37,509 bases of DNA from Acidobacteriota bacterium (lineage in GTDB: Bacteria > Acidobacteriota > Vicinamibacteria > Vicinamibacterales > UBA2999). A program made the position numbers and the translations under genes. This document shows, piece by piece, positions 2,542 through 31,067 of the stretch (position 1 is the stretch's first letter; each line of letters begins with the position of its first letter). The stretch lies in NCBI GenBank assembly GCA_023265015.1, contig JAHFUO010000006.1, positions 1-37,509 on the forward strand, read 5' to 3'. Under the pieces are notes generated by a model, which saw only the letters and a program-made list of their open reading frames with translations, made no database searches and was not told where the DNA came from.

Positions 2542-4745
2542 ACCGCACGTCTGTCGCGCCGAGACGCTGGCAGGCTACTTTCATCATCACGCTGTTCATG
2601 CTTGCCGTGGCCGGCGCGGCATTCACCGGCTGGCGGTTCGCGCGCGAGTCGACCCCGCACCAGGGTCCCATCGTTCTGATCTCCGTTGACGGCCTGCGTG
2701 CCGATCGCCTGACGGCGTACGGCGCGCGTCCCGGCGCCACGCCCGCCATTGACGCGCTCGCGGCCGAGAGCATCGTGTTCGATCGCGCCTATGCGCACTC
2801 GCCTCAGACGCTGCCGGCGCACGCCGCGCTCCTCTCCGGTCAGCTTCCCGTCGACAACGGCGTGAGAGACGACGCGGGATATGCGCTGAAGGGCGGCGCG
2901 CGGACCATCGCTGCGCTGCTGAGGAATCGCGGCTTCAACACGGGCGCGGCTGTCTCCTCGTTCCTGCTGCGACGCACGACCGGCGTCGCGCAGGGCTTTT
3001 CGTTCTACGACGCCGACATCCCCGACGAGCCGCTCGAAGATGGCGGCCTGCCCGAGCGCGCCGGCGGCGCCACGTTCGAGGCGGCGGACCGTTGGCTGAA
3101 GACGCAGAGCGGGCAGCGGTACTTCTTGTTTCTCGAGATCGATACCCGCTCCGCCGACGCCGTGGTTGGCCGGCTGGTCGAAGAGCTGAAGAAGACCAGG
3201 CGCTACGGGGACGCCACGATCTTCCTGACGGGGGATCACGGAGATGCGGGCAACGGCGCCTCGCTCGACGACGGCACGCTGCGGGTGCCGCTCGTCGTGA
3301 AACAACCGGGAGGGGCCGGTGCCGGACGCCGCGTCGTGCAGCCTGTGCAGCACATCGACCTGCTGCCGACGATGCTCGACCTGGTGCGTGCGCCGACGGT
3401 CTCGGGCCTGCGTGGGCGATCGCTGCGCGCGATTCTCGACAAGACCAGCGGCTTCGTCCCCGACCAGCCGATCTACGCCGAATCGCTGGCCGCGCAATTC
3501 AGGTTCGGTGGCCGTCCCGTGTTTGCGTTGTCCGGTGGCGCGTATCGAATCGTCCGCGGCCCGGATGACCAGCTTCAGCGCCTCGTGCCCGAGGCTGCGG
3601 CCATCGATCCCGCGCGGCTGGCTCAGTTGAACGCATCCCTCGATCGCCTGCTCCAGGGACGGGCGATAGAGCCGCCGGCGCGTCCGGCGCAGGCGGACGA
3701 GGATCGGCTCGCGGCATTCGGCTACCTGCAGGGCCTTCGCACTTTCGCACCTCTCGCACCTCTCGCAGCTCTCGCACCCCTCGCACCGCTCGCACCGCTC
3801 GCACCCCTCGCACCCCTCGCACGCCTCGCACCCCTCGCACCGACAATGGATGCGGCGGATCAGGCATCCCTGGTCGCCGCTCATCGCGTCGCTGTCCTGC
3901 TCGTCGCGCAGAAGCGATTCTCCGCGGCGCTCGATGGCCTGCGCGCGATTGCGGCGGAGCACCCGGATCTCGCTGCCGTGCAGTATCAAATCGGTTCGCT
4001 GCTCGCGCGGATCGGCCGATTCGACGAGGCCACGAAGACACTGCAGGCGGTGGCGGCGCTGAGGCCGGACGATCCTGAAGTGCCGATGGCGCTCGCCTCC
4101 ACGATGCTGCGCGCCCGCCGCCTGGACGATGCCTCGATGCAGGCGGATCGCGCCGTGGAGCTCGCGGAGGCCGGCGGCGACACGCGGATGAAGGCGGGCG
4201 CGCATGAAATCGCGGCGCGCGTAGCACTCGCGCGCGACGACGCCGGTGGCGCAAACGCTCACGCGCTCGAGGCGCAGAAGGCCGACCCCTCGCTGCCGCT
4301 GCCCCAGTTCGTTCATGGGCGGCTCCTCTACGAGGATGCGCGGTACGAGCAGGCGCTCGCGGCGTTCAAGGACGCTGAGCGCGCGCTCAAGCCGGAGGGC
4401 CGCTCGATCGCGGAGCTGCACCTGTATCTTGGAAATGTCTTCGCGAGGCTGGACAGGTACATGGAGGCCGAAGCCGAATTCCGGGAGGAGCTGCGCGAGT
4501 TCCCGCAGAACATCGGCACCTACGCGAGCCTGGCGATGCTCTATCGCGCGTCGAACCGAGCCCAGGCCGTGGAGCACGTGATCGGCGATCTCGTCGAAAC
4601 CACGCCGACGCCGGAGGGGTACTCGATGGCCGCGCGGCTCTTGACGATCGTCGGCGAGCGCGCCCGCGCGGAGGCCCTCAGGTCCGACGCGCGGCGAAAG
4701 TTCCGCGGCGATCCCTCGCTCGCGCTGCTCGGACGATCCCGGTAG
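2538..4745 (+). CDS. Alkaline-phosphatase-superfamily (sulfatase-like) hydrolase with C-terminal TPR domain
   Basis: LISVDGLRADRLTAYG, HSPQTLPAHAALLSG, LTGDHGD motifs; TPR repeats after a LAP-repeat linker; ATGA overlap with previous gene. Confidence 0.85.
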   Translation: MNRTSVAPRRWQATFIITLFMLAVAGAAFTGWRFARESTPHQGPIVLISVDGLRADRLTAYGARPGATPAIDALAAESIVFDRAYAHSPQTLPAHAALLSGQLPVDNGVRDDAGYALKGGARTIAALLRNRGFNTGAAVSSFLLRRTTGVAQGFSFYDADIPDEPLEDGGLPERAGGATFEAADRWLKTQSGQRYFLFLEIDTRSADAVVGRLVEELKKTRRYGDATIFLTGDHGDAGNGASLDDGTLRVPLVVKQPGGAGAGRRVVQPVQHIDLLPTMLDLVRAPTVSGLRGRSLRAILDKTSGFVPDQPIYAESLAAQFRFGGRPVFALSGGAYRIVRGPDDQLQRLVPEAAAIDPARLAQLNASLDRLLQGRAIEPPARPAQADEDRLAAFGYLQGLRTFAPLAPLAALAPLAPLAPLAPLAPLARLAPLAPTMDAADQASLVAAHRVAVLLVAQKRFSAALDGLRAIAAEHPDLAAVQYQIGSLLARIGRFDEATKTLQAVAALRPDDPEVPMALASTMLRARRLDDASMQADRAVELAEAGGDTRMKAGAHEIAARVALARDDAGGANAHALEAQKADPSLPLPQFVHGRLLYEDARYEQALAAFKDAERALKPEGRSIAELHLYLGNVFARLDRYMEAEAEFREELREFPQNIGTYASLAMLYRASNRAQAVEHVIGDLVETTPTPEGYSMAARLLTIVGERARAEALRSDARRKFRGDPSLALLGRSR
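3735..3842 (+). repeat. 12 x 9-bp in-frame minisatellite (CTCGCACCN)
   Basis: Units such as ctcgcaccc/ctcgcaccg encoding (LAP)n inside the phosphatase-TPR gene. Confidence 0.95.
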
Positions 4746-4803
4746 CCACGAAGATCACGAAGACGGTTTCAACCACGAAGGTCACGAAGGTCGCGAAGGA
4801 AAG
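4746..4803 (+). repeat. CACGAAGRT repeat after phosphatase stop
   Basis: ccacgaagatcacgaagacggtttcaaccacgaaggtcacgaaggtcgcgaaggaaagca. Confidence 0.9.
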
Positions 4804-5778: not shown

Positions 5779-5895
5779 GCCACGGAGAGCACGGAGAGCA
5801 CGGAGACGATTTCAACCACGAAGGTCACGAAGGAAAGCAGTGCTTCGTGCTCTTCGTGACCTTCGTGGTTTAGACCGTCTTGGTGGCCTTCGTGG
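5779..5895. repeat. CACGGAGAG/CACGAAGGT repeat with perfect 19-bp inverted arms
   Basis: AACCACGAAGGTCACGAAG (5814-5832) / CTTCGTGACCTTCGTGGTT (5852-5870). Confidence 0.92.
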
Positions 5896-7288: not shown

Positions 7289-7744
7289 TCAACATCGGGT
7301 GCGGAACTGGCGCACGGCCTCGACCATCACTGCAGCCACCAGCGACGTTGCGCCGGCCAGCATCCACATCGGCTGCGCGCGCAACCGGACCATCATCACA
7401 TACGCGATCCCAGCGAGTATAGCGTATCTCGTGATGTATTTCACAAGACGCCACCACCTCGAAGCACGCCGATGGTCGGGCTGATCTGCGGCAGCAGCCG
7501 GCAACTGCATCGCGGCGTCGACCGCGGCGCGCAGCGCGCCGTAGCTCATCGCGATGAGGGCGCCGCCGCCAACGACGGCCGCCGCCGATCGCCATCCGTT
7601 GTCGGTCACCGCGCCGACGAGGGCGATCGCCGCGCACGCGATGACGCCGGTCCGCTCGATGCGTCGCAGCTGCGGATCGCGTTCAATCCCGAGCCCTGAG
7701 CCCTGGGCCTTGAGCCCTGAGCCCTGAGCCCTGAGCCTTCTCAT
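7289..7744 (-). CDS. ATP synthase subunit I-like small membrane protein; N-terminus encoded by a heptamer repeat
   Basis: ATGA overlap with upstream atpZ-like gene; ~4 hydrophobic segments; position in atp cluster. Confidence 0.6.
   Translation of the reverse strand: MRRLRAQGSGLKAQGSGLGIERDPQLRRIERTGVIACAAIALVGAVTDNGWRSAAAVVGGGALIAMSYGALRAAVDAAMQLPAAAADQPDHRRASRWWRLVKYITRYAILAGIAYVMMVRLRAQPMWMLAGATSLVAAVMVEAVRQFRTRC
7688..7739 (-). repeat. 7-bp repeat AGGGCTC in 5' end of subunit I-like gene
   Basis: gagccctgagccctgggccttgagccctgagccctgagccctgagcctt. Confidence 0.92.
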
Positions 7745-19209: not shown

Positions 19210-20485
19210 CAAGAAGCTTTTCGCGCGCGCCTCTCAGATCCTTCCCGGCGGCGTGGACAGTCCCGTGCGCGCGTTCAGGAGCGTCGGCGGAACGCCTCTG
19301 TTCATCAGCCGCGCCTCGGGCGCCACAATCGAGGACGTCGACGGCAACCGCTTCATCGATTACGTGATGTCATGGGGTCCGCTGGTCCACGGCCACGCCC
19401 CGCGCGGCCTGGTGAAGGCGATCGCCGCGGCAGCCAGGCGCGGAACGAGCTTCGGCGCCCCAAGCCCGCTCGAGCACCGGCTCGGCGGGCTCGTGCGCAC
19501 GCTGATGCCGTCGATGGAGCGCGTGCGCTTCGTCAGCTCCGGGACCGAGGCGGCGATGAGCGCGCTGCGCGTGGCCCGCGCGTTCACCGGGCGCGACCGC
19601 ATCATCAAGTTCGAAGGGTGCTACCACGGACACGCGGACGCGTTTCTCGTCAAGGCGGGCTCCGGCGCGACGACGCTGGGGATTCCGACGAGCCCCGGCG
19701 TGCCGGCGGCGGTGGCGGCCGACACGCTGCTGGCCCGCTACAACGATCTCGCCTCCGTCTCCGCCCTCTGCGCGGCGCAGGCGGGCAGGATCGCGGCCGT
19801 TATCGTTGAGCCGATCGCCGGCAACATGGGGCTCGTCCCGCCGTCGGACGGCTTCCTGTCCGGCCTGCGCGATCTCTGCTCACGCCACGCCGTCGTGCTG
19901 ATCTTCGACGAGGTGATCTCGGGGTTTCGCGCATCGGCGGGGGGCGCCCAATCGATCTTCGGGATTCGGCCGGATCTCACGTGCCTGGGCAAGATCATCG
20001 GCGGCGGCCTGCCGGTGGGCGCGTACGGCGGCCGCGCCGACATCATGGATCTCGTCGCGCCGGCCGGCGCCGTCTACCAGGCAGGCACGCTGTCGGGCAA
20101 TCCCATCGCGATGACCGCCGGCCTCTGGGCTCTCGAGCACTTGTCACCCAGGCTCTACAAGAATCTGGCGCACCGCGGATCGATGCTCGCCGAGGGCCTG
20201 GCCGACGCGGCTCGGGCGGCGAAGGTGTCGCTGCAGGTCAACGCGTTCGGCTCGCTGGTGACGCCGTTCTTCAGCTCGTCGCCTGTTCGCGATTACGCCT
20301 CCGCGCTCAACGCCAATACCTCCGCCTACGCGACGTTCTTCCGCGGCATGCTGGCGCGCGGTGTCTATCCACCGCCATCGCAGTTCGAGGCGTGGTTCCT
20401 GTCTGCGGCGCACACCGATCGTCATGTGAAGAAGACGATCGCCGCGGCGAGACTTGCGATGAAGGATGTCGCGAGGACGATCTGA
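19190..20485 (+). CDS. hemL: Glutamate-1-semialdehyde 2,1-aminomutase
   Basis: [72 protein letters not shown]; overlaps hemB end. Confidence 0.95.
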
Positions 20486-20490
20486 CGGAA

Positions 20491-20566
20491 AGGTGCGAGG
20501 GTGCGAGTCGTGCGAGGGTGCGTCCGAGGGTGCGAGGGTGCGACAGTGGGTTCGAGGGTGCGAGGC
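20491..20566 (+). repeat. 9-bp GTGCGAGGG repeat upstream of DUF1572 gene
   Basis: aggtgcgagggtgcgagtcgtgcgagggtgcgtccgagggtgcgagggtgcgacagtgggttcgagggtgcgagg. Confidence 0.92.
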
Positions 20567-20567
20567 A

Positions 20568-21131
20568 ATGACAGATTTCGTCGGTTCCATTGCGGCGGAG
20601 TTTCATCGTTATAAGGCGCTTGGCGACTCTGCCCTGGCGCAGCTCGCGGACGACCAGCTCTCGACGACGGGACCGAACGGAGGGAATTCCGCGGCCGTGC
20701 TCGTCTGGCATATCGGCGGCAACCTGTCGTCGCGCTTCAGCGATTTCCTGACGAGCGACGGGGAGAAGCCGTGGCGTCATCGCGACGAGGAGTTCGTTCA
20801 ACGCACGGTGACGCGCGAGGAGCTGTTCGAGAAATGGAACGGCGGCTGGAGCGTGCTGTTCAGCGCCCTGGACGCGCTGGCCGACGACGACCTCGGAAAG
20901 ACGGTGAAGATTCGCGGCCAGTCATTCGAGGTGCACGACGGCCTGCATCGAGCGCTCGGCCACATCTGCTATCACGTCGGCCAGATCGTCTACCTGGCGA
21001 AATCGCTGCGGGGCGACTCGTGGAATTGTTTGAGCATTCCGGTCGGAGCCTCGGAGGCCTACAACCGGAACCCGACGCTTCAGGATCCAGCCGCGCATGC
21101 AGCGGCGGTCACACGACAATCCGGACGGTGA
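20568..21131 (+). CDS. DinB-like / DUF1572 family protein
   Basis: Conserved H...DGLHRALGHICYHVGQIVYLAKSL; ATG directly after repeat tract. Confidence 0.7.
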   Translation: MTDFVGSIAAEFHRYKALGDSALAQLADDQLSTTGPNGGNSAAVLVWHIGGNLSSRFSDFLTSDGEKPWRHRDEEFVQRTVTREELFEKWNGGWSVLFSALDALADDDLGKTVKIRGQSFEVHDGLHRALGHICYHVGQIVYLAKSLRGDSWNCLSIPVGASEAYNRNPTLQDPAAHAAAVTRQSGR

Positions 21132-23643: not shown

Positions 23644-23652
23644 ATCCCTCAC

Positions 23653-23739
23653 GGCGCCCCGTAAAGGGGCGCCCTACGTGCCGTGGCGCCCCGCAAGGGG
23701 CGCCCTACGTGCGGCCGCGGCACCCCGTGAAGGGGCGCC
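23653..23739 (-). repeat. Three tandem GC-rich palindromic repeats between cdsA and dxr
   Basis: Hairpins GGCGCCCCgtaaaGGGGCGCC (23653-23673), GGCGCCCCgcaaGGGGCGCC approx. (23685-23704), GGCACCCCgtgaaGGGGCGCC (23719-23739), each followed by CTAC. Confidence 0.9.
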
Positions 23740-24522
23740 CTACAGTCCCCCACTGCCGTGAAGATAGACGTAGAAGGGCGGCACGGCGAAGAGCAGCGCG
23801 TCGATGCGATCGAGGACGCCGCCGTGACCGGGAATCAGCGAGGAGCTGTCCTTCAACCCCGCGGCGCGCTTCAGGCGCGACTCGAACAGGTCACCGCCGA
23901 TGCCGAGCACCACGATCGCCAGGCCAAGCCCCGCGAGTGACGTGATCGATCGCCCGGGCAGTACGCGCTGGCCTGCAAGCGCCATGAACAGCGTGCCGAC
24001 GATCACGCCGCCGACCGCGCCTTCGATCGTCTTCTTCGGGCTGATCGCGGGCGCAAGCGGATGGCGTCCGAACATCCGCCCCGAGTAGTACTGCGCCGAG
24101 TCGCTGACAACGACGGTGGCCATCAGCAGCAGCGTGGCCGTGCGGCCGCCGAGCATCTGGACGCTCACGAGCATGCCGAGCGGCATGCCGAGATACCAGG
24201 GCGCGAAGAAGCGCGCGGCGGCGTCGCCGATCGGCCGGGCGCGGAGCAGGACCTCCACGCCGACCCAGACCACACCGAACAGGACGAGCACGACGAGATG
24301 CGCCGGCACCGGCTCGGCCATCCACCAGCACGTCAGCGCGACGATCAGGAGCGCCGGCACTTCGCCGCGCGTGGAGCGGCCGCCGGAGACGACATGGACG
24401 TATTCGTGCGCGGCCAGCGCGGCGACCGCACACGCAAGCAGGCGGAGGCCGATGAGAGGGAGAAAGAGAATCGCGGCGAGGGCTGCGGCAGCGAGAAACA
24501 CCCCGCTGATGACGCGCGTCAT
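23740..24522 (-). CDS. cdsA: Phosphatidate cytidylyltransferase
   Basis: MTRVISGVFLAAAALAAILF...SDSAQYYSGRMFGRHPLAPAISPKKTIEGAVGGV...ESRLKRAAGLKDSSSLIPGHGGVLDRIDALLF. Confidence 0.95.
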   Translation of the reverse strand: MTRVISGVFLAAAALAAILFLPLIGLRLLACAVAALAAHEYVHVVSGGRSTRGEVPALLIVALTCWWMAEPVPAHLVVLVLFGVVWVGVEVLLRARPIGDAAARFFAPWYLGMPLGMLVSVQMLGGRTATLLLMATVVVSDSAQYYSGRMFGRHPLAPAISPKKTIEGAVGGVIVGTLFMALAGQRVLPGRSITSLAGLGLAIVVLGIGGDLFESRLKRAAGLKDSSSLIPGHGGVLDRIDALLFAVPPFYVYLHGSGGL

Positions 24523-29358: not shown

Positions 29359-29398
29359 TTTTCGTGGTCATCGCGACTTTCGTGATCTTCGTGGTTTG
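29312..29398. repeat. CACGAAGA-type repeat between convergent genes
   Basis: cacgaagacgcgaagatctcgaaggtCACGAAAAaccaaaatagTTTTCGTGgtcatcgcgactttcgtgatcttcgtgg. Confidence 0.88.
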
Positions 29399-30291
29399 AG
29401 CTGACGACCCTTGGGGCGGCAGACACCACGGAGCGGACACTGCCGATCGCCCTGGGCGCGGCGGTAGCCGCACGCGTTCATCATCCCGACGTGGCAGAGG
29501 GAGAAGTCGTATCGGACCGGATCGGCTGCATCGATGGTGCGCAGCGAGGCGGTGATCTCCGCCGCCATCTTCCAGCCGGGCGTCGCGTAGCGCGTGAGGC
29601 GAAGGCAACGACCGAGCCGGATCACGTGCGTGTCGAGCGGAACGATGAGCTGCGAAGGGGACACCCGTGTCCACACGCCGAGATCGATCGCGTCGCGGCG
29701 GACCATCCATCTCAGAAACAGGTTGAGCCGCTTGCAGGCGCTGCCCGCCGACGGCCGCGGAAAGAAATAGCAGACGCCGGGCCGTTTCGGCACGCGGCCG
29801 TACGCGGGGCGGAGATCGGTCTGCAGCGCGCGGGTCGAAAACGCGTCGAGCGCAGGGCCGATGTCGGGCGCCCGCGGATCGTCCCCCACGACGAAGAAAC
29901 CCTCAATCGACCCAGACTCGCGCAGCATGCGCTGCAGGATCAGCAGTAACGCCACCAGATCGCGCCCGCGGATCCAGCGATGCACGAGCGGATCGAGACG
30001 CTCGCGATGCCGCGCGGGATCAAACGCGCGGACAAACGCTGCGGGCCTCGGCCCCATGACGGCGAGCAGCGATTCGATCGAGTGCAGCACGCTCGCGACG
30101 CGGCCGAACGCCAGGGCGGAGGCGCAGAAGCCGACCACCTCCCGGTCCTCCCGCGCCTCGTAGCGCCGGACGATGTGGATCGGGTCGGTGGCGGAATTGA
30201 CGTGATCGAAGGTGCGGTACAGGTCATCGAGACGAGGACCGAAGTCGGTTCGTGGGTGCACGGGTGCACGGGTGCACAAGGTTCGGTTCAT
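29368..30291 (-). CDS. TIGR02757 family protein (HhH-GPD-like fold)
   Basis: VGFCASALAFGRVASVLHSIESLL, KRLNLFLRWMVRRDAIDLGVW, LIVPLDTHVIRLGRCLRLT; C-terminal Cys cluster. Confidence 0.8.
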   Translation of the reverse strand: MNRTLCTRAPVHPRTDFGPRLDDLYRTFDHVNSATDPIHIVRRYEAREDREVVGFCASALAFGRVASVLHSIESLLAVMGPRPAAFVRAFDPARHRERLDPLVHRWIRGRDLVALLLILQRMLRESGSIEGFFVVGDDPRAPDIGPALDAFSTRALQTDLRPAYGRVPKRPGVCYFFPRPSAGSACKRLNLFLRWMVRRDAIDLGVWTRVSPSQLIVPLDTHVIRLGRCLRLTRYATPGWKMAAEITASLRTIDAADPVRYDFSLCHVGMMNACGYRRAQGDRQCPLRGVCRPKGRQLKPRRSRKSR

Positions 30292-30420
30292 GGGTGCGCC
30301 GGTTCGGGTTCGGGATGGGTTCGGGATGGGTTCGGGGTTCGTTCCGGGGTTGAATCCGGGGTTGAATTCAGGGTAGGGCTTCGAACCTGTGCACCCGTGA
30401 ACCCGCGCACCCGCGAACCC
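30248..30420. repeat. GGGTGCAC/GGTTCG inverted repeat with tandem centre
   Basis: Left ggttcgtgggtgcacgggtgcacgggtgcacaaggttcg; right, reverse-complemented, ggttcgcgggtgcgcgggttcacgggtgcacaggttcg; centre gggttcgggatgggttcgggatgggttcgggg. Confidence 0.88.
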
Positions 30421-31067
30421 TATTTCGGAAACGGCTTGAGCGCGGGCGTGCTGCCCGCCGGCAGCGGCGTCCGCGCGACGTTGAGCACCATCGAGATCAT
30501 CGAGTAGTAGCCGTTCACGCCGACCAGGTCCATCATCCCCTGCTCGCCGAACTTCGCCACCGCCCGCGCATACGTGCGATCGGTGACGCTGTGGAGCTCG
30601 TTCAGCTCCGTGCTGAACTCGTAGACGATTTCCTGCTCGTCGGTCATGTTCTCCGGACGACGGCCGTCCGCAACCGCCTGGATGATCGCGTCGCTCAGGC
30701 CGGCCGTCTTCGCGTCGGCGGCGTGCACGTACCATTCGTACTCCTGCGTCCAGCGTCGCGACTGCAGCAGGATCGCGAATTCGCTGACCGCGCGCGGCAG
30801 CGCGTTGCCGAGGCGCAGGTAGATGCCCATCCGGGCGGCCGTCAGCATGAACTGCGGGCTGCGGCTGAGCGCGATGAATGGGCCGAAGACCTCCTGCTTG
30901 CGCTCCGCCAGGAAGTCGGCCGCCGCCTGCTTCTGCGCGGCGGTCAGCTTGTCCGCGGGAATCGGCGGAAGACGATCTTGCGCGGCACCGTCCGAAACAA
31001 ATGCACAAAGGGACATCACGATGAGAGTCGACGCGGCGACGATGATTTTCATGTGATTGAAATCCAT
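30420..31067 (-). CDS. Secreted carboxymuconolactone decarboxylase family protein
   Basis: N-terminal signal; SRSPQFMLTAARMGIYLRLGNALPRAVSEFAILLQSRRWTQEYEWYVHAADAKTAGLSDAIIQAV. Confidence 0.8.
   Translation of the reverse strand: MDFNHMKIIVAASTLIVMSLCAFVSDGAAQDRLPPIPADKLTAAQKQAAADFLAERKQEVFGPFIALSRSPQFMLTAARMGIYLRLGNALPRAVSEFAILLQSRRWTQEYEWYVHAADAKTAGLSDAIIQAVADGRRPENMTDEQEIVYEFSTELNELHSVTDRTYARAVAKFGEQGMMDLVGVNGYYSMISMVLNVARTPLPAGSTPALKPFPK

Follow-up and report, generated by a model that had tools for sequence, protein, structure and literature searches.

A palindrome of GGTKC words at a Vicinamibacterales gene junction is probably a diverged copy of a dispersed MITE-like foldback element

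In a 37,509-nucleotide stretch of DNA (the window) from the Vicinamibacterales MAG of a soil acidobacterium, a long palindrome lies between two minus-strand genes, which raises the question of what such a structure is and how it came to hold the candidate start codons of one of them. The sequence at 30244–30422 is an imperfect palindrome with a tandem centre. Inverted-repeat and tandem-repeat analysis places the left arm at 30247–30278 (plus strand), where it consists of GGTTCGT and three GGGTGCAC words (30254–30277); the right arm at 30388–30419 (minus strand) is its inverse, and the two are 32 nt each, 91% complementary and 109 nt apart. The centre (30301–30374, plus strand) is made of 2.8 copies of GGGTTCGGGAT (30306–30336) and 2.7 copies of a 12-bp unit of the TTGAATCCGGGG type (30343–30374). 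A pattern match alone marks a G-quadruplex-type motif, GGGTTCGGGATGGGTTCGGG, at 30306–30325 on the plus strand, the template strand for both genes. The first-pass annotation had described inverted arms around a tandem centre that take up the whole space between two codirectional genes, with the last base of the upstream TAG as the first base of the right arm, and all of this is borne out, the last at 30420.

The upstream gene (30420–31067, minus strand) is carboxymuconolactone decarboxylase/alkylhydroperoxidase-like (CMD-like) by a weak family match only (TIGR04030, E 0.0007, far under the family cut-off), and a Pfam search with it gave no match. Its TAG stop (30420–30422, minus strand) forms the edge of the element, with the last base within the arm, and the same-genus relative G002 has the same stop. 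The other gene, TIGR02757/DUF2400 (29368–30291, minus strand), is intact (NCBIfam E 2.7e-51; Pfam DUF2400 E 7.1e-68). All of its usual in-frame starts ahead of the conserved domain (ATG 30291, TTG 30279 and GTG 30261) are inside the element, and between the arm and the domain the only candidate is CTG 30222. Translation from ATG 30291 does yield the N-terminus MNRTLCTRAPVHPRTDFGPR given in the first-pass annotation, but a codon-usage gene caller written for this analysis prefers GTG 30261, which is also in the arm. Many homologs have a start about 11–16 residues ahead of LYRTFDH. A second TIGR02757 gene in the same genome (contig C135; locus L306, 1648–2472) is 81% identical to the window copy and has an ordinary start; it is either a paralog or MAG contamination. 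At three loci in other Vicinamibacteria (L062, L065 and L066), other tandem words, TGTCTCTG, GGGGTGCGG/CCGCGTCC and GTGCAAGGTGCA respectively, abut or enter the TIGR02757 start.

The palindrome is not confined to this junction. We surveyed the genome of the source MAG (G000, 92% complete) by searches and by inspection of genome stretches, and the recurrence for which the first-pass annotation had proposed a scan is plain: GGGTGCACGGGTGCAC with up to two mismatches has 37 matches in the genome vs 3 for a reversed control, and three GGGTKCNN units have 27 vs 0. These belong to a family of 150–240 bp foldback repeats that are near-palindromic end to end and carry no transposase gene, and whose arms are made up of repeated GGTKC(N)3 words, with GGTKC first and GMACC last. 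A covariance model (R1) built from 11 copies, the window copy included, finds about 21 places (42 strand matches, since a palindrome is matched on both strands) with E down to 3.5e-37, and many of these had not gone into its construction. Copies of the main subfamily carry YTAANSC-RGTTCTCNGGTTGCTC as an inverted repeat at each terminus and end in YTA(A/G); a search with this repeat gave 44 matches vs 0 for the reversed control, mostly as facing pairs about 130–166 bp apart. It brought in additional copies, of which two are shortened in the middle and retain both ends, and two contigs that terminate inside a copy. By our count over model and terminal-repeat matches, the genome has copies in roughly 30 or more places. 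The first-pass annotation thus had the structure, the position and the starts within the arm, but missed that the palindrome is one copy of a dispersed foldback family. It is a diverged one, at most about 82–84% like any other copy, with the terminal repeat reduced to its word part and TA at one end only; it scores 80.3 bits against R1 on the minus strand, to which we assign it, and 63.9 bits on the plus strand, the window copy being among those from which the model was built. Judged by its sequence, the window copy is an older member of the family or one of a different subfamily.

Across a 376-kb genome sample, which was picked for containing word arrays and so gives no array density, 36 of 39 arrays are intergenic. 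Where neighbouring arrays run in opposite directions, GGTKC comes first and GMACC second in all cases (10 of 10 in this sample, 5 of 5 in genome G058). One-sided and unpaired word arrays are also present. The window itself has other arrays. One, a one-directional GGTGCGAG array at 20492–20587, begins 6 bp past the stop codon of a gene whose end is at 20485 and extends into the start of the following gene, with the layout of the GGTKC arrays and a different word. Others are a tandem array of TCGCACCCC (10.8 copies) in a predicted coding region at 3745–3841, a 31-bp tandem repeat at 23652–23743 that contains the palindrome CGGCGCCCCGTAAAGGGGCGCC and separates two minus-strand genes, and short arrays with 7–9 bp units (CACGAAGGT, CACGGAGAG, GAGCCCT and GATCCCC), mostly intergenic, at 4774–4799, 5781–5806, 7691–7737 and 1729–1784.

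A family of this kind could arise by expansion in place, with replication slippage and hairpin-templated copying building inverted tandem arrays at gene junctions out of short GGTKC words, and the likeness of copies reflecting shared mutational bias and conversion without transposition. The variable number of tandem words is consistent with this, as are the one-sided pure arrays, the window centre, which is itself a tandem expansion, and the different word palindromes that other genera have at the same junctions. However, some full-length copies, found in either orientation and with unrelated flanking sequence, share 92–98% identity across about 180 bp, and aligned copies share both the phase-shifted word order and the two ends. 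The arms within one copy also match no better than arms between copies (p 0.10–0.16, permutation), and expansion in place is an unlikely account of the family.

A comparison with G002 bears on how the copies reached their sites. Orthologous gene pairs in relatives were located by querying with a composite of pieces from the flanking proteins, and seven junctions, that in the window included, have 153–242 bp in G000 vs 0–34 bp of unaligned sequence in G002. At one of these (L350) the G002 gene seems to be several codons longer, and in G000 its stop is the terminal TAA of the element. At the window junction, the TIGR02757 coding sequence of G002 follows directly after the CMD TAG, a TTG within CMD is its sole usual in-frame start codon, and the two genes apparently overlap. 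Because the genes join without it in G002, with TIGR02757 apparently starting inside CMD, the element was most likely inserted at this junction in G000 and now supplies the N-terminus of the protein from one of the candidate start codons. Overall, the comparisons argue for movement of elements into the G000 sites, with loss in G002 possible at individual sites; movement is favored because near-identical copies occupy unrelated sites.

The same junctions bear on whether the palindromes are instead RNA structures kept by selection, as 3′-end hairpins for termination, for protection of mRNA ends or for repression of TIGR02757. The folds are certainly strong: the minus-strand RNA of the window element folds at −84.7 kcal/mol (z −8.6), with none of 200 dinucleotide shuffles as low (−52.2 ± 3.8 kcal/mol), and the DNA fold has a z of −6.8. 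Only 1 of 500 shuffles reaches the covariation score, although that score derives mainly from a few columns of word type, may reflect subfamily descent and is not an independent test. Copies are also enriched between convergent genes (10 of 22 copy contexts vs 23 of 158 intergenic regions, p 0.0016, with gene calls of our own and two compared sets that overlap), which favors this reading. Against it are the lack of the element in same-genus G002 at all seven compared junctions and the lack of excess arm coupling (p 0.10–0.16): because the arms of one copy match no better than those of different copies, pairing upheld by selection is unsupported. A scan of 30150–30550 in the window found no intrinsic terminator (a GC-rich stem followed by a T-run) and no promoter, and an Rfam search gave sub-threshold matches only (best 32.8 bits vs 78). 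We regard selection for RNA structure as quite unlikely to explain these repeats.

The ends of the copies point to a site preference. Of 42 ends, 25 have a TA exactly 6 nt ahead of the terminal word, vs a background of 1.24%, and by our count a pyrimidine precedes it in 24 of these 25. Among 30 stop-facing ends, the stop codon is no more than 12 nt from the terminal word in 19 and exactly at the terminus in nine; it is TAA or TAG in 17 of the 19 vs 170 of 323 genes (binomial p 0.0008, Fisher p 0.001). Elements of the IS630/mariner type insert at TA, which is duplicated (PMC2170065), and the reference list of that paper includes work on an IS630 preference for CTAG; the target of MITEPsy1 is CTAG or YTAA (PMC3189936). 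Targeting of TA or YTAR in a GC-rich genome would favor TAA and TAG stop codons. Most main-subfamily copies have TA at both ends, and the empty sites are too diverged to separate a duplication from a conserved end.

We conclude, with a probability of roughly 0.78, that the palindrome in the window represents a diverged member of a family of non-autonomous, MITE-like foldback elements. The family is short, without a transposase gene, dispersed, has terminal inverted repeats and has empty sites in relatives, and the label MITE-like fits its structure, copy pattern and empty sites; we go no further than this label and name no family because no partner IS was found and a target duplication is only a possibility at these ends. 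In the mechanism we propose, a transposase acting in trans, either IS630/mariner-like or IS5-like with a 4-bp duplication, would place the element at the TA within YTAR. Since TA is rare in this GC-rich genome and part of TAA and TAG, insertions would land on, or survive at, stop codons, and the terminal TAA or TAG of the element could itself act as a stop. In the window, the element would have landed at the CMD TAG, separating TIGR02757 from its start inside CMD, and may now provide its leader and first codons; a long hairpin could form in the mRNA over the TIGR02757 start, with reduced or uncoupled translation predicted. The transposase as mover is something we infer, because none was found: searches for an IS630-type transposase (PF13358) gave no match in G000 or in G024, a genome of another genus, the G000 MAG being 92% complete and the search confined to the IS630 type, and no IS-sized pair of matching ends was seen in the terminal-repeat searches of this incomplete MAG. 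A full-length copy had no match in plasmid and phage collections. Slippage or some other additional step would be required to account for the one-sided and unpaired arrays.

Mobilization by a REP-associated Y1 (RAYT) transposase, which would make these REP/BIME-type repeats, is very improbable. The repeats are indeed palindromic, intergenic and adjoin stop codons, and G000 has six Y1_Tnp genes, but the number of Y1_Tnp genes does not follow copy number across 59 genomes (Spearman 0.14, p 0.29), no copy lies near any of 13 Y1_Tnp loci inspected, and the copies far exceed the 20–40 bp of a REP; being too long and with no Y1 link, they are not assigned to this class. We also set aside integron attC sites: the repeat is dispersed through the genome, in many cases between convergent genes, and its sequence has no evident core of the GTTRRRY type.

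GGGTKCNC word triplets are present in nine of the 59 genomes of the relatives set and in six genomes of a 396-genome phylum sample, only one of which is outside the order and has a single array. R1 has strong matches in G024 (E 1e-32) and weaker ones in further genera. The word dialects differ between genomes and include 8-bp GGTGCTC/GGTTCTC, 9-bp GGTTCTTCG, 9-bp GGTGCACNN and unrelated GTTCGGAAC words. At some junctions shared with other genera the palindromes differ, those of G006 being built of GGTTC words and those of G016 of GTTCGGAAC words. Such junctions, which carry an element in G000 and other palindromes elsewhere, are seen at L407 (G016) and at L409 and L410 (G006); one palindrome, of GTTCGGAAC words, is directly past a TAG stop. 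In G036, GAATGTC/GACATTC arrays, a second word family arranged in the same way, adjoin GGTTC arrays (L146 and L152), and that at L146 is immediately 3′ of an apparent TAG stop. One could read such patterns as a lineage-wide process that places palindromic word arrays on Vicinamibacterales stop codons, with genome-specific dialects and sometimes independently at one junction across genera, in which case this would be a stop-codon-addressed system and no single ordinary MITE family; we think this improbable.

Our search covered the open literature, and no earlier description of these repeats turned up in it. In kind, they most resemble the TA-ended Correia, RUP and ERIC elements, and in appearance the GGGAATC inverted repeats of Xanthomonas. 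Correia/NEMIS, RUP and ERIC/RU-1 are likewise short, non-coding and multicopy, with inverted ends that have a terminal 5′-TA-3′ and long stem-loops, and RUP is thought to be mobilized by an IS630 transposase at TA targets (PMC2229807). The family described here differs in its tandem GGTKC arms, its tendency to lie on stop codons and in that a partner IS was not found, and the likeness is one of features, without a known sequence relation. The GGGAATC heptamers of Xanthomonas and Nostoc are also G-rich tandem words, often in convergent inverted pairs, intergenic and with G-quadruplex potential, and lie on the coding strand just past or overlapping the stop codon; they are of another word and phylum and no mobile-element association was found for them, whereas here there are a full-length consensus, defined ends and empty sites (PMC4692102).

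Other systems share single features. BrickBuilt of Porphyromonas gingivalis is also a MITE around tandem repeats and always intergenic, but has 23-bp unidirectional units with small inverted ends, in contrast to a full-length foldback of octamer words (PMC4596501). MITEPsy1 of Pseudomonas syringae has a target, CTAG or YTAA, of the class of the YTAR ends seen here, but is 100 bp long with other ends and a demonstrated 4-bp duplication, and is likely IS5-derived (PMC3189936). Enterobacterial RU elements are likewise mobile repeats within coding sequence, among them one at an N-terminus and one at a 3′ end with an altered stop; their sequences are different, and the fused part in our case is predicted coding only (PMC2759123). 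The TAACTGA heptamers of Beggiatoaceae are dispersed intergenic arrays of short words that are patchy among relatives, as here, but the arrays are direct, save for one inverted example, lie mostly ahead of start codons and have no predicted secondary structure (PMC4679880).

These observations provide a concrete account of why gene ends carry word arrays in a soil group that is abundant and little cultured. Gene starts beside such repeats are possibly mis-annotated, and MAG contigs can break within copies. A short mobile hairpin that sits on stop codons, or supplies them, can split overlapping genes and, at the junction described here, likely becomes the first codons of one.
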